Position numbers and translations under genes: made by a program. The notes beneath the pieces were generated by a model. That model made no database searches and was not told where the DNA came from. It was given only the letters and a program-made list of their open reading frames with translations. This document shows, one piece after another, positions 7,617 through 19,861 of a DNA stretch of 64,000 nucleotides; the stretch's first letter is position 1, and every line of letters begins with the position of its first letter. Origin of the DNA: Hyphomicrobiales bacterium (lineage in GTDB: Bacteria > Pseudomonadota > Alphaproteobacteria > Rhizobiales > Rhizobiaceae); contig PAPH01000044.1 of the NCBI GenBank assembly GCA_002709005.1, forward strand, positions 1 through 64,000. The letters are read 5' to 3'.

Positions 7617-8330
7617 ATGGTGGAACGTGTTCGTCTGTTAAAGCTGCTGCAGGGTGTGAATTCGGAAATCGAACTGGCCGCGCTTCTGCGCGAGGCTGCG
7701 CACCAGTTCGACATGTCGTCTTTCGCGATCTACGATCTTCCCTGTCGGAACGCGGTGCAGCTCAAGCCCTATGTGCGCCTGACGGATACACCGACCCGGT
7801 TCTACGACAACTACGACCGCCATGAATTGCTGCGGGATTCGCCGATGTTCAACCATCTGCGGAAATCGACCACTCCGAAGCTCTGGCGCTCGGACACCCT
7901 TCTGCACAAGCGAACAGAGCCCCGCAATGCCCATGTCAGGGATGTCCTGTCGGAAATGGGTTTCGAAGATGCCGCCGTCATTCCGGTTCACAAGATCGAC
8001 GGAACACGAGGGGCCGTCATATTCTCCGGCAGCGGCGTGGACATCAGTCATTATGAACTGGGCATACTCGGCCTGATCGCCGTCCACGCCTACGACATTT
8101 TCGACCTTCTGAACCAGGCCCGCGAGGCACTCGACAACCCCCTGACCGCCCGCGAGACGGAGGTTCTCGAATGGGCGGCCAACGGCAAGACATCCGGAGA
8201 GATCGCCCAGATTCTCGCGCTCTCGGATCACACGATCAACACCTACATGAATTCGGCAATGCGCAAGCTCGATTGCGTCAATCGCACGCAACTGGTTGCC
8301 AAGGCACTGCGTCTGCACCTGATCAACTAG
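7617..8330 (+). CDS. LuxR-family regulator with autoinducer-binding domain
   Basis: C-terminal LTARETEVLEWAANGKTSGEIAQILALSDHTINTYMNSAMRKL (GerE HTH); N-terminal autoinducer-binding-like region. Confidence 0.85.
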   Translation: MVERVRLLKLLQGVNSEIELAALLREAAHQFDMSSFAIYDLPCRNAVQLKPYVRLTDTPTRFYDNYDRHELLRDSPMFNHLRKSTTPKLWRSDTLLHKRTEPRNAHVRDVLSEMGFEDAAVIPVHKIDGTRGAVIFSGSGVDISHYELGILGLIAVHAYDIFDLLNQAREALDNPLTARETEVLEWAANGKTSGEIAQILALSDHTINTYMNSAMRKLDCVNRTQLVAKALRLHLIN

Positions 8331-8394
8331 GCGGCGAATTCATCGGACTGGAGATGACCGGCAGAACTGCACGACGAGCACGGGGGACGGGAAC

Positions 8395-8883
8395 TTGGTC
8401 GTGAAATTCGAATTCAGCAAGGACACCAAAAGACCACGGGGAACTGAACACATCCGGATATCGGGCGACGATCTGCTCGAGCTCCTCTGCGCGCATCAGA
8501 AATTCGGCTTCTGGCGCAGCGAACTCGACACCGGACACACATTCTGGTCCCGCGACATCTTCGACATCTACGGGCTTCCCTTTACCGAGGGTCCGGTCAA
8601 TCTCTCGGCGGCCAACGCCATCGTCCATCCCGATGATCTTCGCTACATGCTTCTGTTGACCGAACGCTCGGCCAGGGAGAAGACGGGGTTCCACTATGTG
8701 CTTCGCCTCCTGGGTCCGCACGGGCACCACAGATACGTGCGCTCTGTCGGGCGCTACCGCGTGACGGGGGAAGGACGGGAGGAACTCTACGGAACGTTCG
8801 AACTCTTCCACGACCAGAGCCGGCTGGTGGGCGTCGTCGACAGCCTCGACCGTCCTGACCCGGAAGATGTCAGCCAGCCTTAG
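8395..8883 (+). CDS. PAS (PAS_3-like) domain protein
   Basis: 162 aa; GFWRSELDTGHTFWSRDIFDIYGLP...VHPDDLRYMLLL; start codon (TTG) uncertain. Confidence 0.65.
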   Translation: MVVKFEFSKDTKRPRGTEHIRISGDDLLELLCAHQKFGFWRSELDTGHTFWSRDIFDIYGLPFTEGPVNLSAANAIVHPDDLRYMLLLTERSAREKTGFHYVLRLLGPHGHHRYVRSVGRYRVTGEGREELYGTFELFHDQSRLVGVVDSLDRPDPEDVSQP

Positions 8884-8932: not shown

Positions 8933-10060
8933 TCAGCGATCAAGAATGTCGCGCATTTCCACGAGGTTGGACCGAACCCGCAGCACGTAAAAACCCATCG
9001 TCGCCAGATGAGACGGCATGATCCAGCTCGCCTCGTTGCCGTTCGAGATGATGAAGGGCGTCATGTCCAGCGCCCCCCGCAGCTGATCAGCCGTCCTGTC
9101 CCAGACGAGGTCGATCCGCCGGTCGTTGTAGACGTCGGCGAAATCGGACTGGGTAGCGCGCAGCAGGCCGTAATAGGCGTAGAGCTGGCCGTAGGTGAAC
9201 CAGAAACGGTCGTCGGCGCGCGCATCGAACCAGCCGGCATCGCTCGCCTCCATCTGCTGACGGAGGATGTCGGAGGTGGAACCGATGTCGCCGGTGATGC
9301 GGTCGAGGAACTGCAGCAGATTGTCGGAACGCGCGTCGAACTCGCCCGTACAGTTTTCCAGTTCCGCATTGAACGCCTCGAGCGCCCGGCGCGCCTCGCG
9401 CTGCCGTTCCGGCGTCGAGGGCTGCACGAAGGGCGGCGTGAAGGTCAGCCACCAAGCATCCTCGTCATAGGCCATCGCCTGCCGCGCGTCCTGAAGGTTC
9501 TGGTTGATCTGGGAAGTGCCGCGGACGCGCCCCAGCCGGTCCACCAGTTCCACCGTCGTCCGCCGGATCACCTGGTTGATGCCGAGCTGGAAGGCTGCCT
9601 TGTTGTCGAGGAAGGGCGTGTACTTCCAGTCGAGGCCGAACAGGCCGGCCTTCGACAGCGGCATGGAAGGCACCCAGCTGTTCTGGTTGACGTTGAAATC
9701 GATCAGATCGCCGGTCACCTGCACGATGGCCGAGGGAGCGCATTTTCCCGCATCTGCGGCGTCCAGCGGCACCCCGGGACTGATTTTCCGGGAGGCAAAC
9801 TCGTACCGGTCGGGATAGTCCGGATTGTAGTTCGTCCAGCGTTCCGCCACCCAGATGAAATGGCCGTACCCGACCACGAGCAGCAGAAGGAGAATGAGAA
9901 TGGGTATCCGCACCAGCCAGCCGCGCTTGGTGTACCATCGCCCCACCGCCATGAAGGGCCAGAGGATCATCGCGACCAGCCAGCCGATTCCGCGGCCAAT
10001 GGCGTTGAATATCCGCGCGAAGAATTCGATCACCGGATCAAGCATCGTCTCTGGCTCCAT
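8933..10060 (-). CDS. DUF2333-family membrane-anchored protein
   Basis: 375 aa; single N-terminal TM (IPILILLLLLVVGYGHFIW) and a long soluble region resembling DUF2333; overlaps the upstream gene by 23 bp. Confidence 0.7.
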   Translation of the reverse strand: MEPETMLDPVIEFFARIFNAIGRGIGWLVAMILWPFMAVGRWYTKRGWLVRIPILILLLLLVVGYGHFIWVAERWTNYNPDYPDRYEFASRKISPGVPLDAADAGKCAPSAIVQVTGDLIDFNVNQNSWVPSMPLSKAGLFGLDWKYTPFLDNKAAFQLGINQVIRRTTVELVDRLGRVRGTSQINQNLQDARQAMAYDEDAWWLTFTPPFVQPSTPERQREARRALEAFNAELENCTGEFDARSDNLLQFLDRITGDIGSTSDILRQQMEASDAGWFDARADDRFWFTYGQLYAYYGLLRATQSDFADVYNDRRIDLVWDRTADQLRGALDMTPFIISNGNEASWIMPSHLATMGFYVLRVRSNLVEMRDILDR

Positions 10061-11339
10061 CTATTCCGTAAAGACGTGCCCGGAGCGCCGTCTTGTCGGC
10101 AAGGTAGGTGTTCGTGAGATACGCCACAACATGCCGGCGATAATATTCAGGGTAGGTCCCGTAGGCTTCGTAGAAGCCCTGTTTATCGAAAATGAAGCGA
10201 CTTACGAAGTCGAAGGGTGAAATCCGCGCGATCAGCCGGTTCACCAGCCACTTGTCTTCATGGGTCGGATCGGCTCGGACCAGAAGCAGCCGGCGGCTCG
10301 GCGCGATCTCGCTCATCCGGATATGCCCGCCCAGTTCGATCATCCTGAGCGCTTCCTGGAAAAACGGATAGAGCCCGTCCTCGGCGATCGTCCGGGCGTT
10401 TCGCTGCATCCATGTCTGCAGCCATACCGCATCGACCCCCGTCAGATCGAGATCCGGCGCCGTCCGGCGAATGAGATCATGCACCGCCATGATACCGCGA
10501 TGAATATAAAGCCCCGACCTCTCCACCCAGGAGGCCTGCGGCAACTCCAGCCGGCCGGTCTTGGCGAGATAGTCGAAAATCCGCTCGTGGTCGGCGATAT
10601 CGATATAGCTCACTTCCCAGGGGCGCGAGCGCCTGAAGCCCGGCGCCTCGCGATCGCAGATCACGGTCATCGCCTTGTCGTCGTGAAACAGAAAGATGCC
10701 GCCGAAATGCGCCGTCCAGTAGGACAAATGCGGGAAAACCAGCTTGTCGGGCACAAGCGGGTTCTGGCGGATGTCGCCCGTCGCCTGGGCGAGTTCCACC
10801 ATCCGGGTGAGCATGTCATCGTCGCGCCAACCGTCCTGCGAGGTTGTCAGCGTGTCGGCCAGCATCCGCAATTCGGTGGCCTTCGACAAAAGTCCGTCGG
10901 CGGAGAGTACCCGGAAGGTGACTTCGTTGATCTTCAAGAGATCCTCGATGTCGTTGACGACGGCGACCGGCTCCTCGATCTCGCCATAGAGCGCATCCTT
11001 GATGGTGACCGCAGAAATTACCCGCCGGTTGCCCTCGAAGAACTCGTGCATCAGTCCGGCCGTGTTGGAAAACTGCGTATGGACGACCGGAAGCTTCTCC
11101 TGCTCGGGGGTGAGGATGATGAAACGACGGTTGACGCCGTTCGGATCGAGATAGGCCTGGTCACCCAGTTCCTCCGCTACTTCCGGAGAATAACCGGTCA
11201 TGTCGATGCGGAAGGATTTCATCTCGGTGGCAGGCAAGCCGAAGGCGATGAGCGCCTTGTTGTAGCGCTCGACGAGATGCGGCGCATCGATCCGAAGCAG
11301 GCTGCCGAAGATCAGGCGTGAGTTTTCAAGGCGCTTCAT
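10038..11339 (-). CDS. DUF6638-like conserved protein of unknown function
   Basis: 433 aa ORF translationally coupled to DUF2333 gene; family name from recall. Confidence 0.6.
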   Translation of the reverse strand: MKRLENSRLIFGSLLRIDAPHLVERYNKALIAFGLPATEMKSFRIDMTGYSPEVAEELGDQAYLDPNGVNRRFIILTPEQEKLPVVHTQFSNTAGLMHEFFEGNRRVISAVTIKDALYGEIEEPVAVVNDIEDLLKINEVTFRVLSADGLLSKATELRMLADTLTTSQDGWRDDDMLTRMVELAQATGDIRQNPLVPDKLVFPHLSYWTAHFGGIFLFHDDKAMTVICDREAPGFRRSRPWEVSYIDIADHERIFDYLAKTGRLELPQASWVERSGLYIHRGIMAVHDLIRRTAPDLDLTGVDAVWLQTWMQRNARTIAEDGLYPFFQEALRMIELGGHIRMSEIAPSRRLLLVRADPTHEDKWLVNRLIARISPFDFVSRFIFDKQGFYEAYGTYPEYYRRHVVAYLTNTYLADKTALRARLYGIDGARDDA

Positions 11340-11425
11340 ATGCGCAAAGCCCCGCTATTGACGGTAGACGCCCGCCTATTCCAGGCACGCCTGGATGATC
11401 GAACGCATTTGGAAGGGCACTCAAA

Positions 11426-11662
11426 CTATGCTTCCTCGATCATCTCACGTACCGTTTTTTGCCCAGGCGTGTGAGCGGTGGCTTCCTCTTGCCGCTTTTC
11501 TATCGCCTCGCGCTCCTTTTTCTCATCCGATATGTCATCGGCATGGACGATCTTGGCGATGACTTTTCCCTTTCGGGTGATAAATATCTCTTCCCCGCCT
11601 GCCGCCATTTCCAGCAGCCCGCTCCATTGTTTGCGCGCTTCACTCACACCATAGCTCTTCAT
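11426..11662 (-). CDS. Type II toxin-antitoxin system antitoxin, Phd/YefM-like, apparently orphan
   Basis: MKSYGVSEARKQWSGLLEMAAGGEEIFITRKGKVIAKIV fold; internal ATG at 11662 preceded by GGGGGAC. Confidence 0.75.
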   Translation of the reverse strand: MKSYGVSEARKQWSGLLEMAAGGEEIFITRKGKVIAKIVHADDISDEKKEREAIEKRQEEATAHTPGQKTVREMIEEA

Positions 11663-11734
11663 TGGTCGTCCCCCGGCGATACCCAGACTACGGGTCGAGA
11701 ATAACATGTACCTGATGGGCGCCAACCGGCGCCC

Positions 11735-13651
11735 TTAGCCGTTCCAACGCCCCTCGCCCTTCATCACTTCGATCTCGCGGATCGCCCGCTCGCGCTGTCG
11801 CTCCCGGCGGATGATATCGGTGACCGCAGCATCGTCGGCCCGGTCGGTATAGCGGAATTCGGAATCGGCGTAGCGGTTGATCTCCTGCATCACCATGTCG
11901 ATGGTGAAAGGCTCGCGCAGCTCGGAAATCATCTCGAGCTTCTCGTCATAGGGCTTGCGCAGGAAGGGTTCGGGCGTTTCGAACCATTCGTCCGGCAGAT
12001 CGAAATCCATCGCCCGCATCTTGATCGCATCGGTGATGTTCTTGATCGCCCGGCCGGTAAACCGCGGCTCCGCCTGTTTGATCATGTGCAGGTAGACACC
12101 GATGTCACGCAATGTCTTCGGCGCGCCATTGGCCTTCTCGTACCGCTCCCATACCGCCGCAAGCCCCGCCTCGTCGGGGCGCGAATGATCCTCATAGGCC
12201 GACTTCACGGCCCGCTTGATCTCCTGCCCGGCATAAAGATCGTGCGCGCCGAGCGGGATCTCGTGGTTCTTGCCCGCAAGCAGCGCGAAGATGTCGATAT
12301 AGTCGGCTTCCGACCGCGGCCCGTCGATCAGCCAGCGGGCGCCGGCGCGCTGTCTCAACGCGTCGTCGACATTTTCGGGATAGTTCGAGAACATGCCAAA
12401 AGTGCAGTTGCCGCGCACGATTGTGGTCGCGCCGGCAAAGGCTTCCATCAGCACCGCCGTGACCTCCTGCTGGCCCGACGAGGCGCGGTCGTCGGACCGC
12501 TTTGCCGCCACCTGGTCGATGTCGTCGATCGTGCCGAAGCCGATGGCGCGCGGGTTGACTACCGTGTCGATGAACGCCTTGCAGTTCTGCCCCGACTTGC
12601 CCTGGTACGAGGATATCTGGTCGACGCCGAAATTCTCGTAGTGAAAGGGATAGCCCGCGACCTGGCAGTAGTCGTTGATCAAGCCGGCCATCATCTGGAT
12701 CAGGATCGTCTTGCCGGTGCCCGGCGCGCCGTCGCCGATGAAGGTGAAGAGAAAGCCGCCCAGCTCCACGAACGGGTTCATCTGCCGCTCGAAATCATAG
12801 GCAACGATCATCCGCGACAGCCGCATCGCCTGGTGCTTGGCGAGGTGGTTGCCGACGATCTCGTGAGGTTTCTTGAAGCTCATCGCCAGCGGCTTGCGGC
12901 GCTGTCCCGGCGCGACCTCGAACCCATCGAGCGTGAAATTGTCGCTTTCGAGACGGATATGCGACTGCGCGAAGGTCGAAAGCGCGTTGAAGCGCGCGAT
13001 CCGCGCCAGCAGCGCCTCGATCGCCTCGCGTGCGAAAGCCCGCGCCCGCGCCGTCATCGCAGCCGCATCCGGCGCGCCGGAAACCGCGCCGTCCAGTCCG
13101 GCGACCAGCGATTTCAGCGCGTCCTGCGGCGTATCGAACTCGATCTTCGGCTCGCCGGTGTCGTCGGCGGGTTCGCTTTCACCATCGAGCGTCTGCAACA
13201 GATAGGCGGCAAAGGTGAAGGCAGCAACATAACTCGAGGCAGCCAGGAGATCGCGAAAACGCTGCGCTTCCTCGCCCTGCAACGGCGCGCCGAGATTGCG
13301 GGCCTTCAGATCCTCGAGATCGGTCTGCCTAGCATAGCTGTCGGCAACCGCCAGCGCCACCGCGATCCCGCGCCGGGCGCGATAAAGAAGCGCATGCTGC
13401 GGGATCGACAGCATCGTATCCAGTGGCGGCAGGTTGGCGATGGACTTCGCAAGTTCCACTTCCCTGGACCGCCGCATGCCGCCGGTCGAGACAGTGGAGA
13501 CGAAGCGCCGCCCTGTCCCTGCAAGCGCTGTTTTCGACGATCCGTCGTCGGCAGTGACGACCACGATCCTCGTCACCATCTGTTGCGCGGTGGCCCGGTG
13601 GGTTTCGATATCGTCCTCGGAAAGCGTCGTCAGTCCTGCGGTCTGGCTCAT
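11735..13651 (-). CDS. AAA+ family ATPase of unknown function
   Basis: 638 aa; Walker A GDGAPGTGKT, Walker B-like AIGFGTIDDID, sensor/arginine-finger-like SNYPENVDDALRQR. Confidence 0.85.
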   Translation of the reverse strand: MSQTAGLTTLSEDDIETHRATAQQMVTRIVVVTADDGSSKTALAGTGRRFVSTVSTGGMRRSREVELAKSIANLPPLDTMLSIPQHALLYRARRGIAVALAVADSYARQTDLEDLKARNLGAPLQGEEAQRFRDLLAASSYVAAFTFAAYLLQTLDGESEPADDTGEPKIEFDTPQDALKSLVAGLDGAVSGAPDAAAMTARARAFAREAIEALLARIARFNALSTFAQSHIRLESDNFTLDGFEVAPGQRRKPLAMSFKKPHEIVGNHLAKHQAMRLSRMIVAYDFERQMNPFVELGGFLFTFIGDGAPGTGKTILIQMMAGLINDYCQVAGYPFHYENFGVDQISSYQGKSGQNCKAFIDTVVNPRAIGFGTIDDIDQVAAKRSDDRASSGQQEVTAVLMEAFAGATTIVRGNCTFGMFSNYPENVDDALRQRAGARWLIDGPRSEADYIDIFALLAGKNHEIPLGAHDLYAGQEIKRAVKSAYEDHSRPDEAGLAAVWERYEKANGAPKTLRDIGVYLHMIKQAEPRFTGRAIKNITDAIKMRAMDFDLPDEWFETPEPFLRKPYDEKLEMISELREPFTIDMVMQEINRYADSEFRYTDRADDAAVTDIIRRERQRERAIREIEVMKGEGRWNG

Positions 13652-13655
13652 CGCG

Positions 13656-14837
13656 TCAAACCTCCGTAATCACCTGGTTACCCGAAATCACGTGCACGCG
13701 GTAATCGGCGAACACGCGCTCCGCCTCGCCTTCCGCGTAAAGCGCCTGAAAGGCGTCGTGCGGGACCAGCGCGTGTTTCTCGTAGCCGCTGACGCCTTGC
13801 CGGACGGCCTCCAGATCGTCGGTATCGATGTGAAACTCTTCCGCAGCCGGCGTCGAGCTCCAAAGCCCCTTCTTGGCGGGCCGCTCGGCCTTCGAGAACA
13901 CCTCCTGGATCGTCCACGTCAGCACCCAGCCGTTTTCCGGATTGCGCACCCGCGACAGGATCTCGTTCACGCGGCCCGAATTCTCGGTGATGCCCGCCGA
14001 ATAGAACGGACCGAGCACAATGCGCCGCAACTGCTTGGGATGAAGCTCGGGAAACTCCGCATCGATGGTCTGGGCAATCGTGACCGGCGAGAGCGAATAG
14101 GCGCCGTTGCGTTCGACGCAGGCATCGAAGGCGCGCGCCAGTTCGGGATTGAGAAGCCCGCCGACCGGAAGCGGTATCCGCACTTTCGGATCGAGCTTTC
14201 CGCCATCGGTGACCAGCATGTCGCGCAACCGCTCCGTGGAATCCTCGATGGTCGCCATGTAGACCATCGGCAGGATCTGGCTGCCGTCGAACACGCCCCA
14301 GTGCACCACGTAATAGGGGCGCATGGTCTTCGGGTTGACCGAGACCTTGATCGTTTCGGGCAGCACAAATGGCCCGAAAGGCTCGCCCCCCAGCACGCCT
14401 TCGAGATAGAGCCGCTCGGCCATCTGCGTCTGCAGCTTGTCGGGAAACGCCTTGTGGCGCAGGATGAAGTCGGCCATCTCGGCCTTGATCGCGTCGGGAT
14501 CGGGAATGGAAGCCAGCCGTTCTTCGGCCGTCTCGCGATCGTTTTGAAGCTCCAGCACGCTCTGGAAGACCGGATAACCGCTCTCGGCGCGGTTGATCCG
14601 GAAGCGCTCCATGAAAGCGACCCGGTTCTCCCAGGCCGAAAAGCTCGCTTCCAGCCGATTGACGTAGCCCGCCACGACCTGCCCGACGATGCCGTGACCG
14701 TAAAGCGGCGAGTCGTCGTGGGCGAGATAGATCCGCAGGCCTTTCAACGCCGACCGCATCGCCGCGAAATAGGCTTCGACCGGATGGTGGACGGGATCGG
14801 CGGTCATGCCGTCGCTCTCCGGAACCGTCGTGACCAT
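13656..14837 (-). CDS. Conserved hypothetical protein
   Basis: 393 aa, 4-bp gap to both neighbours in the operon; no family recognised. Confidence 0.75.
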   Translation of the reverse strand: MVTTVPESDGMTADPVHHPVEAYFAAMRSALKGLRIYLAHDDSPLYGHGIVGQVVAGYVNRLEASFSAWENRVAFMERFRINRAESGYPVFQSVLELQNDRETAEERLASIPDPDAIKAEMADFILRHKAFPDKLQTQMAERLYLEGVLGGEPFGPFVLPETIKVSVNPKTMRPYYVVHWGVFDGSQILPMVYMATIEDSTERLRDMLVTDGGKLDPKVRIPLPVGGLLNPELARAFDACVERNGAYSLSPVTIAQTIDAEFPELHPKQLRRIVLGPFYSAGITENSGRVNEILSRVRNPENGWVLTWTIQEVFSKAERPAKKGLWSSTPAAEEFHIDTDDLEAVRQGVSGYEKHALVPHDAFQALYAEGEAERVFADYRVHVISGNQVITEV

Positions 14838-14840
14838 GTT

Positions 14841-15926
14841 CTACTGAACGTACTTAGCCGCGTTGTGCTTCTCCATCACATCGGCGAACCGCCGCTGGAA
14901 GGCATCGTCGGCGAGCTTCTTGCGTCGCTGGATATCCTGCGTCGAAAGCATGTTCTTCTCGTGCATTTCGAGAAGGTCACCGATGTGCTTCTGCGCGGCC
15001 GCCCCAATGCCGGCCATGGTCTCCTCGGCGGCCGTATCCACCTTCGAACCAAGCGTATTGATCTTGTGCGCCACATCCTGCTGCGCGGCCGTTTTCAACG
15101 AATCCTCAAGCGACTTGTAGAGAACGATGCGCTGTTCGGTATCGATGGAAAGCTTGTTGATCAGCGTCGACTGCGCGGCGATCTGGTTGTTGAGCGAGTC
15201 GACAAAGGTCTGGAACATGGAGGTGTAGCGCTCGAGCGTCTGGCTCTCGGCGAGAAGCTCCTGCTCCTTGGCCTGCTTCTCGTTATATTCGGTAGCGAGC
15301 GCCGCGCGCTCGGATTCGAGATCGGCGCGCGTCTTCTGGTCGGTCGAGGCGGCAATGCGGTTCTCGACATCGAGCAGCATGGGGTTGAGTTCCTCGATGC
15401 GCGCCTGGGTTTCCTCCAGCCGCGCCATCGTCGCCTTACGCCGCTCGATCACCTTGACGAGGCTTTCCTCCGAGGTCTTGTAGCGAGCCTCGAGAACGTT
15501 CTTCTGTTCCTTCAGAATGCCGACGATCGTGTCCGACTTGGCGAGCAACTCCTGCAGGTTTCCGGCAAGCGACATGTTGCGCACCCGGTCCGTGCGCATG
15601 CGCTGGGCGCGGGATTTCGAGAAGATCGAGACGAAATTCTCCCATCCGGAATACCCCTTCATGCTCTCGAACTCGGCGCCGAACACGTTGGTTGCATCCT
15701 CGAGCCCGATGATGAGATCCGCGATGTTGGCTTCCATCACCTTCTGTTGCTTTAGCACGTCCTCGATCCGGGCATTCTCGATGTCGAATTCGGCGTCACC
15801 GACCGCCTTGTCGGAATCTGAGAGCTTTTCGAGAACGACACCCGATTGCTCGAGCTTGGTGCGCATGTCCGCGACCGTCTTGCGTGTGCGCTGAATTTCG
15901 CTGTCGAAATTGGATATGCTCGCCAT
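14841..15926 (-). CDS. Coiled-coil protein (remotely TelA-like)
   Basis: 361 aa from MASISNFDSEIQRTRK (ATG at 15926, GGAGAG upstream); heptad-rich, no TM or signal peptide. Confidence 0.75.
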   Translation of the reverse strand: MASISNFDSEIQRTRKTVADMRTKLEQSGVVLEKLSDSDKAVGDAEFDIENARIEDVLKQQKVMEANIADLIIGLEDATNVFGAEFESMKGYSGWENFVSIFSKSRAQRMRTDRVRNMSLAGNLQELLAKSDTIVGILKEQKNVLEARYKTSEESLVKVIERRKATMARLEETQARIEELNPMLLDVENRIAASTDQKTRADLESERAALATEYNEKQAKEQELLAESQTLERYTSMFQTFVDSLNNQIAAQSTLINKLSIDTEQRIVLYKSLEDSLKTAAQQDVAHKINTLGSKVDTAAEETMAGIGAAAQKHIGDLLEMHEKNMLSTQDIQRRKKLADDAFQRRFADVMEKHNAAKYVQ

Positions 15927-16941: not shown

Positions 16942-17877
16942 ATGAAAAGAACCATCGCTCTCGCCGTGGCGCTCGCCGCCGGCACGGCTACCGCATTCGC
17001 CGCCGAGCCGGACAGCTGCAAAACGGTCCGCTTCTCGGACGTCGGCTGGACCGACATCACAGCGACCACCGCAACCGCGACCGTGGTCCTCGACGCCCTC
17101 GACTACGACACCGATATCAAGGTTCTCTCCGTGCCGGTGACTTACACCTCGCTGAAGAACAAGGACATCGACGTCTTCCTCGGCAACTGGATGCCGACTA
17201 TGGAGGGCGACATCGCTCCCTACCGTGAAGACGGTTCGGTCGAAACCGTCCGTGAAAACCTGGAAGGCGCGAAGTACACGCTCGCCACCAACGCCAAGGG
17301 CGCCGAGCTCGGCATCAAGTCCTTCGAGGACATCGCCAAGCACAAGGACGAACTCGACGGAAAGATCTACGGCATCGAGCCGGGCAATGACGGCAACCGG
17401 CTCATCCTCGACATGATCTCCGCCGATACCTTCGGCCTCAAGGACTTCGACGTCGTGGAATCTTCCGAACAGGGCATGCTCGCCCAGGTCGCACGTGCCG
17501 AAAAGTCCGACGAGCCGGTGGTCTTCCTCGGCTGGGAACCGCACCCGATGAACGCCAACTTCAAGCTGACCTACCTCTCCGGCGGCGATGACGTGTTCGG
17601 CCCCGATTACGGCGGCGCCACCGTCTACACCAACGTGCGCAAGGGCTACACCTCGGAATGCGCCAATGTCGGCAAGTTCCTCGAGAACCTGAAGTTCACG
17701 CTGGCCATGGAAAACGAGATCATGGGCGCCATCCTCGATGACGGCAAGGATCCGGAAGACGCCGCCGAAGACTGGCTGAAGAAGAACCCTGGCGTGCTCG
17801 ACGAATGGCTCGCAGGCGTGACCACCTTCGACGGTGGCGATGCCATGGCGGCCGTCAAGGACGAACTCGATCTCTGA
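16942..17877 (+). CDS. choX: Choline/glycine betaine ABC transporter substrate-binding protein
   Basis: 311 aa; signal peptide; SDVGWTDITATTATATVVLDALDYDT; followed by betaine permease and ATPase. Confidence 0.9.
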   Translation: MKRTIALAVALAAGTATAFAAEPDSCKTVRFSDVGWTDITATTATATVVLDALDYDTDIKVLSVPVTYTSLKNKDIDVFLGNWMPTMEGDIAPYREDGSVETVRENLEGAKYTLATNAKGAELGIKSFEDIAKHKDELDGKIYGIEPGNDGNRLILDMISADTFGLKDFDVVESSEQGMLAQVARAEKSDEPVVFLGWEPHPMNANFKLTYLSGGDDVFGPDYGGATVYTNVRKGYTSECANVGKFLENLKFTLAMENEIMGAILDDGKDPEDAAEDWLKKNPGVLDEWLAGVTTFDGGDAMAAVKDELDL

Positions 17878-17899
17878 TCGACCGCCCAACCGATTGATG

Positions 17900-17923
17900 C
17901 CGGGCGGCGGTCACGCCGCCCGG
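17900..17923 (+). other. Intercistronic hairpin between choX and choW
   Basis: CCGGGCGGC-ggtcac-GCCGCCCGG, perfect 9-bp stem. Confidence 0.7.
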
Positions 17924-17975
17924 TTTGCATTCCCCACACGAAACCGACCCCAACAACACCGAGAGGTCCCGCCCG

Positions 17976-18818
17976 GTGGAATGGCTTGAAGACCATACGA
18001 TCCCGATAGGCAAATGGTCGGAGGTTTTCGTCGACTGGCTCACCGATGACTTCGGCTGGGTGTTCGACGGCATATCCTTCGTCATCGCCCATCTCGTCGA
18101 CGCCCTGCTCTGGTGTCTCCAGACGCCTCACCCGCTGGTTATAGTGGCAATCTTCTGCGGACTGTCCTGGCTCCTGCGCCGCAAGGCGATGCCCGTGGTT
18201 CTCACCGGCATCGGCCTTCTGTTCATCATCAACCAGGGCTACTGGGAAGAAACCACCGAGACGCTGGCGCTGGTCATCGCCGCCACCAGCGTGTGCATGC
18301 TCATCGGCGTGCCGCTCGGCATCGCCGCAGCCCGCCGCAAGTGGCTTTATTCGATCCTCCGGCCGGTTCTCGACCTCATGCAGACGATCCCCACCTTCGT
18401 CTATCTCATTCCGGCGCTCATCCTCTTCGGTCTCGGCATGGTCCCAGGGCTGATCTCGACCGTGATCTTCGCCATTCCCGCACCCGTCCGCCTCACCCGG
18501 CTGGGCATCGCCGCCACCCCGACCCCGCTCAAGGAGGCGGCGCTCGCCTTCGGAGCGACCAAGAGCCAGGTTCTGACCAAAATCGAATTGCCCTACGCCC
18601 TCCCGCAGATCATGGCCGGCCTGACGCAGACCATCATGCTGTCGCTGTCCATGGTCGTCATCGCCGCCCTCGTCGGCGCCGACGGGCTCGGCGTTCCCGT
18701 GGTGCGCGCGCTCAACACCGTCAACGTCGCCAAGGGCTTCGAGGCGGGCCTCTGCATCGTCATCCTCGCCATCGTGCTTGACCGCATGTTCCGCACCGAA
18801 GGGGAGGACACGCAATGA
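17976..18818 (+). CDS. choW: Choline ABC transporter permease
   Basis: Proline/glycine betaine permease family; likely GTG start at 17976 (MEWLEDHTIPIGKW); ORF open from 17925. Confidence 0.88.
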   Translation: MEWLEDHTIPIGKWSEVFVDWLTDDFGWVFDGISFVIAHLVDALLWCLQTPHPLVIVAIFCGLSWLLRRKAMPVVLTGIGLLFIINQGYWEETTETLALVIAATSVCMLIGVPLGIAAARRKWLYSILRPVLDLMQTIPTFVYLIPALILFGLGMVPGLISTVIFAIPAPVRLTRLGIAATPTPLKEAALAFGATKSQVLTKIELPYALPQIMAGLTQTIMLSLSMVVIAALVGADGLGVPVVRALNTVNVAKGFEAGLCIVILAIVLDRMFRTEGEDTQ

Positions 18819-19861
18819 GCGAAGCCGCCGTCACCATTCGCAATGTGGACATCATCTTCGGCGACAATCCGAAGGACGCGGTCGCCATGCTCGATCGCGG
18901 CGCGACCCGTGACCAGATCGCGGCAGAAACCGGTGCCGTGCTCGGTGTGGCCGACGCCAATATCGACATCCGCCAGGGCGAGATTCTCGTGCTCATGGGG
19001 CTTTCGGGCTCGGGCAAGTCCACGCTGCTGCGCGCCGTCAACGGTCTGGCGCCGGTCCGCCGGGGCGAGGTCCAGGTGCGCTGCGGAGACGAGGTGACCA
19101 ATCCCTACGCCTGCTCGCAGAAGGAACTGCGGCAGTTGCGCGCCGACCATGTCTCCATGGTCTTCCAGCAGTTTGGCCTTTTGCCCTGGCGCACGGTCGC
19201 CGAGAATGTCGGCTTCGGCCTCGAACTCGCCGGTCAGAAGCCCGCCCAGCGCAAGAAGCGCGTCACCGAACAGCTCGAACTGGTCGGCCTGGCGGATTGG
19301 GCCGACCGCAAGGTCGGCGAGCTGTCGGGCGGCATGCAGCAGCGCGTTGGTCTGGCCCGCGCCTTCGCAACCGGCGCGCCTATCCTCCTGATGGACGAAC
19401 CGTTCTCCGCGCTCGACCCGCTGATCCGGACCCGGCTGCAGGACGAGCTTCTCGACTTCCAGCAGAAGCTGCACAAGACCATCCTTTTCGTCAGCCACGA
19501 TCTCGACGAGGCCTTCCGTATCGGCAACCGCATCGCCATCATGGAAGCCGGCCGCATCGTCCAGTGCGGCACGCCGCGCGAGATCGTCGACAAGCCGGCC
19601 AACGACTACGTCGCCGACTTCGTCGCCAACATGAACCCGATCGCCATGCTGACGGCGGGCGACATCATGGCGCCGCTCAAGCCCGGCACCGGCCAGGACC
19701 AGGTCACCGCCACCGTCAAGCCGGAGACGCCACTTGCCGAGGTGATGGAGGCCCTGTCGCGCCGGCCCGGGACCATCGGGGTCATACAGCGCGGAGCGGT
19801 GGCAGGCTCGATCTCGGCGCAGGACGTGGTCGCCGGCTTGACACGTCACAAGCGCGGGTGA
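18815..19861 (+). CDS. choV: Choline ABC transporter ATP-binding protein
   Basis: 348 aa; Walker A GLSGSGKST, LSGGMQQRVGLARA; ATGA overlap with choW. Confidence 0.92.
   Translation: MSEAAVTIRNVDIIFGDNPKDAVAMLDRGATRDQIAAETGAVLGVADANIDIRQGEILVLMGLSGSGKSTLLRAVNGLAPVRRGEVQVRCGDEVTNPYACSQKELRQLRADHVSMVFQQFGLLPWRTVAENVGFGLELAGQKPAQRKKRVTEQLELVGLADWADRKVGELSGGMQQRVGLARAFATGAPILLMDEPFSALDPLIRTRLQDELLDFQQKLHKTILFVSHDLDEAFRIGNRIAIMEAGRIVQCGTPREIVDKPANDYVADFVANMNPIAMLTAGDIMAPLKPGTGQDQVTATVKPETPLAEVMEALSRRPGTIGVIQRGAVAGSISAQDVVAGLTRHKRG

Follow-up and report, generated by a model that had tools for sequence, protein, structure and literature searches.

The window, the whole stretch of 64,000 nucleotides analysed here, was found to be Pseudohoeflea-like (Rhizobiaceae) in origin, with an AAA protein 92% identical to that of Pseudohoeflea suaedae. 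Five large genes were present on its minus strand in the order CC, U393, AAA, DUF6638 and DUF2333, and this predicted order was in agreement with the gene coordinates and the profile matches. The features of the locus were as follows.

16475-16080: cytochrome c gene, upstream of CC
About 16050-16023, minus strand: intrinsic terminator of the cytochrome c gene, by direct reading of the sequence
15926-14841, minus strand: CC, an all-helical, Cys-free coiled-coil protein of 361 aa
14837-13656, minus strand: U393, a predicted soluble alpha/beta protein of 393 aa
13651-11735, minus strand: AAA, a classical AAA ATPase (PF00004)
11662-11426, minus strand: Phd/YefM antitoxin gene, 78 aa, in the gap between AAA and DUF6638
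11339-10038, minus strand: DUF6638 protein (PF20343, 267 bits), a soluble core component
10060-8933, minus strand: DUF2333 protein (PF10095, 69 bits), an accessory module

The homologues of U393 were found to begin near M13, which makes ATG 14801 its likely start, whereas the homologues of the DUF2333 protein begin with 'MLDP..' and point to ATG 10045. Because of the first of these starts, the gap between CC and U393 is about 39 bp (median of 41 bp in the relatives) and not the 3 bp originally predicted, whereas the 4 bp predicted between U393 and AAA was retained; because of the second, the 23-bp overlap claimed for DUF6638 and DUF2333 is probably one of 8 bp. The five genes had also been described as a contiguous set, which did not hold, since the antitoxin gene overlooked earlier interrupts them between AAA and DUF6638. 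The sequence suggests successive spacings of about 39 bp, 4 bp and 395 bp and an 8-bp overlap along the operon.

The cytochrome c gene was found to end at its own terminator, as claimed, by the presence of a perfect hairpin followed by a T-run (AAGCCGCCC-TCGCC-GGGCGGCTTTTTT, about 16049-16026) in a direct reading; a simple terminator scan did not list this hairpin. A search upstream of CC returned no sigma-70-like promoter, so that the terminator is the basis on which a transcription start of its own was assigned to the operon. Genes of a choline/betaine ABC transporter (choXWV-like) flank the operon at 16942-19861, and this flank is common to Sinorhizobium and Rhizobium. On the other side (7617-8883), a LuxR-type autoinducer-binding regulator and a PAS protein were present convergent with DUF2333, and both were also retained beside the reduced locus of Rhizobium described below. 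In Sinorhizobium meliloti, choX is presumably SMc02737, which would put SMc02733 in this operon. A ChvI-bound fragment has been located within SMc02733 (PMC3687685), which is only a putative operon member and carries no weight in the argument below.

The AAA protein was found to match PF00004 with 43 bits (cut-off 21) and to contain its own N-domain of about 260 aa and a C-terminal extension. The Walker A (GDGAPGTGKT), the pore loop (YQGKSGQN), the sensor-1 Asn423 and the RxR at 433-435 were present, and these motifs were conserved from the alphaproteobacteria to Vibrio. The protein shares the Walker A, the aromatic pore loop 1, the sensor-1 Asn and the RxR in the SRH position with the classical AAA proteins (FtsH/YME1, CDC48, Rpt and Vps4 clade), but differs from them in its own N-domain and C-terminal extension, in its weak and local structural similarity and in the Walker B, where the sequence TIDDID (D376 and D377) contains Asp in place of the catalytic Glu. 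This DD was invariant in all members of the family, including those of Vibrio and of the R. leguminosarum plasmid pRlX5, none of which follow the hhhhDE pattern, and the substitution might leave little or no hydrolysis. The PDB profile matches covered the ATPase module alone, at 4e-5 or weaker (best 5ubv, E 4e-5), and comprised only the modules of an i-AAA protease and of Rpt subunits, so that no close homology to a characterised system emerged. Among other systems, RavA-ViaA and NorQ-NorD are MoxR/VWA pairs which follow the logic of an AAA protein, a partner and a membrane target. The logic is alike, whereas the present AAA matches PF00004 and not MoxR, and no VWA domain was found in its partners.

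No Pfam or NCBIfam family was matched by U393. Its AlphaFold2 model was confident (pLDDT 89, pTM 0.86), no fold match was found in the PDB (best E 0.2, all TM-scores about 0.2 or less), and a fold search of a viral library returned incoherent low-TM matches; on the basis of this model, U393 may represent a new fold. The DUF6638 protein was found to match PF20343 over residues 10-428 with 267 bits against a cut-off of 27, and no mention of DUF6638 was found in the literature searched.

The distribution of these genes was followed by two routes: 398 Pseudomonadota genomes were searched with profiles, and the AAA protein was used to scan the contigs of GTDB genomes. Matches to AAA were present in 26 of the 398 genomes, and DUF6638, searched separately, was found in exactly the same 26. 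U393 was present in 24 of 388 genomes, all of them among those 26 and comprising every one of them in the U393 sample, and full-length CC was found in the same 26 genomes, along with four divergent CC copies. Identical presence sets would arise by chance with a probability of about 10^-25 if the genera were independent, a figure made optimistic by their relatedness. In all 100 loci, which had been retrieved via the AAA or the DUF6638 gene so that the finding concerns the presence and order of the others, CC, U393, AAA and DUF6638 were found on one strand and in one order. Because order and strand are conserved throughout, the gene set is not a product of chance. The operon is real and conserved in many bacteria of soil and sea, with CC-U393-AAA-DUF6638 as its invariant core, and the co-conservation of the neighbours in other genomes was thereby confirmed.

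Adjacency through the synteny of Hyphomicrobiales alone, with no joint function, was also considered, since the choVWX, tk and fhs flanks are likewise conserved in Rhizobiaceae; the Sinorhizobium locus reads choVWX / tk - CC - U393 - AAA - DUF6638 - DUF2333 - fhs - extensin. The core order, however, persisted with different flanks in Rhodobacteraceae, in a genome of a distant class and on Vibrio plasmids of about 0.9 Mb, where AAA is 39% identical and accompanied by the same three partners. Because of this recurrence, and with the perfect co-occurrence, mere synteny is already refuted for the core and is scarcely credible as an explanation. CC, U393, AAA and DUF6638 were shown to form a single conserved functional unit, which moves as a block in both inheritance and transfer.

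The tree of AAA was found to divide into two clades, one of Hyphomicrobiales and one of Rhodobacteraceae, and its Vibrio branch was very long. The genomes of an order-mate and of the distant class were nested within the Rhodobacteraceae clade, and this nesting suggests transfer. A second, divergent copy of the core was present on pRlX5, where it is preceded by a divergent HTH_3 regulator and immediately followed by the gene of a full sigma-70 factor. On the Vibrio plasmids the core was followed by a plasmid-borne mfd gene (transcription-repair coupling factor), with many unknown neighbours including DUF3592 and SIMPL proteins.

Of 87 Hyphomicrobiales-type loci, 12 were found to contain a homologue of the Phd/YefM antitoxin in the gap between AAA and DUF6638. 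In S. meliloti a DUF559 endonuclease and an IS element were present there, and this gap has the look of a hot spot for insertions. As to a toxin partner, no ORF of at least 90 aa was seen between the antitoxin gene and DUF6638 in the window; the antitoxin gene is an orphan outside the core and does not make up a type II toxin-antitoxin pair.

These features bear on the view of the core as a mobile system directed against stress or phages, with CC as its effector or sensor and with only incidental membrane partners. The patchy distribution, the transfer suggested by the nesting in the tree, the location on large plasmids (those of Vibrio, and pRlX5 beside the HTH_3 regulator and the sigma-70 gene) and the antitoxin, endonuclease and IS in the gap of some genomes are all consistent with such a system. 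The Rhizobiaceae locus, on the contrary, was found to be fixed beside choVWX, tk and fhs and not in an obvious island. No homologues of the system proteins were found in phages or viral contigs, the PHROGs matches being to a generic ATPase only, and PADLOC 2.0 gave no meaningful match beyond generic AAA and coiled-coil noise (best 5e-5 to TRIP13, in the ATPase part). A mobile or defence role is on balance considered unlikely, although it is the main rival of the envelope role proposed below.

The membrane protein attached to the core was shown to differ by lineage. DUF2333 was found beside the core in 86 of 87 Rhizobiaceae-type loci, the exception being a short contig which ends within DUF6638. 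All 13 loci of Rhodobacteraceae and two related genomes were found to encode a DUF1523-type protein after DUF6638 (one of these loci was checked against Pfam for this assignment), and nearly all of them also encode a small two-TM protein there. DUF2333 was absent from the core loci of Rhodobacteraceae, Vibrio and pRlX5, and no recognisable DUF1523-like gene was present near the core on the Vibrio plasmids or pRlX5; a membrane tether may therefore not be obligatory. The core's attached membrane protein, where recognised, belongs to one or the other of DUF2333 (PF10095) and DUF1523 (PF07509), and both families differ from the core in occurring also without it, DUF2333 often being found alone (47 of 200 genomes) and DUF1523 being present in genomes lacking the core. 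DUF2333, included in the set by the original prediction, is a real neighbour here but a lineage-specific accessory and not part of the core. Homology between the two families was rejected by profile comparison (probability 1.8%).

The DUF2333 protein was found to match PF10095 in two stretches with 69 bits (cut-off 22), and to contain an amphipathic N-terminus, a TM segment at about 54-72 and invariant Cys107 and Cys237. The predicted N-terminal TM was thereby upheld, and the soluble domains of both DUF2333 and DUF1523 are probably periplasmic. At the DUF2333 loci of Gammaproteobacteria no conserved partner stood out. PspA was dismissed as a partner, being present at one locus (L210) and at none of 17 other DUF2333 loci; no PspA homologue was found in two genomes, that of the window and one core-carrying Rhodobacteraceae genome. 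The literature searched gives no function for DUF2333 or DUF1523; DUF2333 appears there only in passing, next to a T6SS hcp locus (PMC5256989), and the matches to DUF1523 were, judging by their titles, on unrelated topics.

The AlphaFold2 model of CC was of modest confidence (pLDDT 72, pTM 0.55) and contained helices at 120-193 and 197-354. The best-conserved part comprised the 20-residue blocks of 221-280 (mean column identity 0.81-0.86), followed by 281-300 (0.77). A reduced locus was found in Rhizobium (R. leguminosarum pSK03), with the order choVWX / tk - CC' - DUF2333 - PAS - HTH - fhs - extensin, where tk is thymidine kinase and the HTH gene is LuxR. It lacks U393, AAA and DUF6638, and the same neighbourhood was present in two more genomes (G043 and G107). 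CC' has diverged from CC (31.6% identity over 304 aa) and, compared with 32 full CC proteins, was found to contain a clean deletion of 22 aa at about residues 273-294 of the CC of the window, comprising SLKTAAQQDVAHKINTLGSK and its neighbours. This block was present wherever AAA is, lies within the best-conserved stretch and was recognisable even in Vibrio. In the simplest reading of these sequences, the block would be where the ATPase arm grips CC, the rest of CC working with DUF2333. The three CC' sequences belong to one lineage, so that the loss counts as one event, and it could be drift after the loss of the ATPase.

Homology of CC to TelA (PF05816, toxic-anion resistance), suspected from a motif resemblance, was rejected by hhalign (1.1%) and by the lack of a Pfam TelA match. 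TelA is like CC in being helical, of similar length and of stress-operon look, but unlike it by profile (about 1%), and the genome of the window contained no TelA. Homology to PspA/ESCRT-III was likewise rejected at the level of profiles (hhalign 0.2% against an alignment of three PspA sequences). Neither was among the best 50 Foldseek matches of the CC model, at its modest pLDDT of 72.

Almost all of the best Foldseek matches were ClyA-family bundles (best E 7e-4), which raised the view that the ATPase handles CC as an alpha-helical pore former of the ClyA type. The TM-scores normalised to CC were nevertheless below 0.4 with an rmsd of mostly 8-25 A, from a low-confidence model, and a designed three-helix bundle and an Smc coiled coil ranked among the matches too. 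A hydrophobic insertion segment of the ClyA type was also looked for in 30 CC proteins and no TM-like stretch was found in any of them, so that a pore-forming CC is very improbable.

The best explanation as a whole, put forward tentatively and at less than an even chance, is that an AAA machine with adaptors remodels a membrane-tethered CC for the upkeep of the envelope. CC would form a helical bundle in the cytoplasm, and DUF2333 or DUF1523, with an outer domain facing the periplasm, would tether it to the inner membrane; U393 and DUF6638 would serve the ATPase as adaptors or cofactors. The ring of AAA would engage CC via the conserved segment at about residues 273-294, and its aromatic pore loop would remodel or disassemble the CC assembly; because of the Asp-for-Glu Walker B, hydrolysis is expected to be slow. 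In Rhizobium, where the ATPase arm is absent, the tether of CC and DUF2333 would persist, and the likely role would be the upkeep of inner-membrane or envelope integrity. We infer here the physical contacts, the direction of remodelling and the envelope role, and the formation of a CC assembly or filament is a guess from the model. The predicted remodelling of partners by the ATPase was sharpened by the 22-aa block, kept with the ATPase and absent in CC' of Rhizobium, as the site at which we infer it to act. Of the predicted envelope-stress, trafficking or defence machine, envelope maintenance stands as the best guess, the flanks pointing to no envelope function shared by all lineages, whereas defence found no family support in PADLOC.

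The non-canonical DD of the Walker B, invariant in all members, and the stable linkage of four genes in a fixed order would also suit a chaperone or assembly factor (Bcs1/Rubisco-activase-like), with AAA building rather than dismantling a CC-U393-DUF6638 complex. The pore-loop motif YQGKS, on the other hand, is kept as in threading AAA proteins, and a building role is regarded as rather unlikely. For the remodelling of CC, Vps4/ESCRT-III and RavA/ViaA offer a working analogy and not a homology, in that each comprises an ATPase, a polymer or adaptor and a membrane anchor; the Vps4/ESCRT-III and PspF/PspA pairs differ in that no similarity between CC and PspA could be detected by profile.

The system might constitute a new class of AAA machine, a doubtful but wider reading, in which a four-protein core with a new-fold U393 would sit on interchangeable inner-membrane/periplasmic modules and remodel a coiled-coil assembly via a short docking block, from alphaproteobacteria to Vibrio megaplasmids. 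As predicted, no described function for the set was found in the literature searched, and a four-gene block containing an ATPase and a protein of no recognisable fold is present in alphaproteobacteria and on gammaproteobacterial megaplasmids. The natural swaps between DUF2333 and DUF1523 and the reduced CC'-DUF2333 of Rhizobium make the wiring directly testable, and working it out would assign functions to DUF6638, DUF2333 and DUF1523 together.
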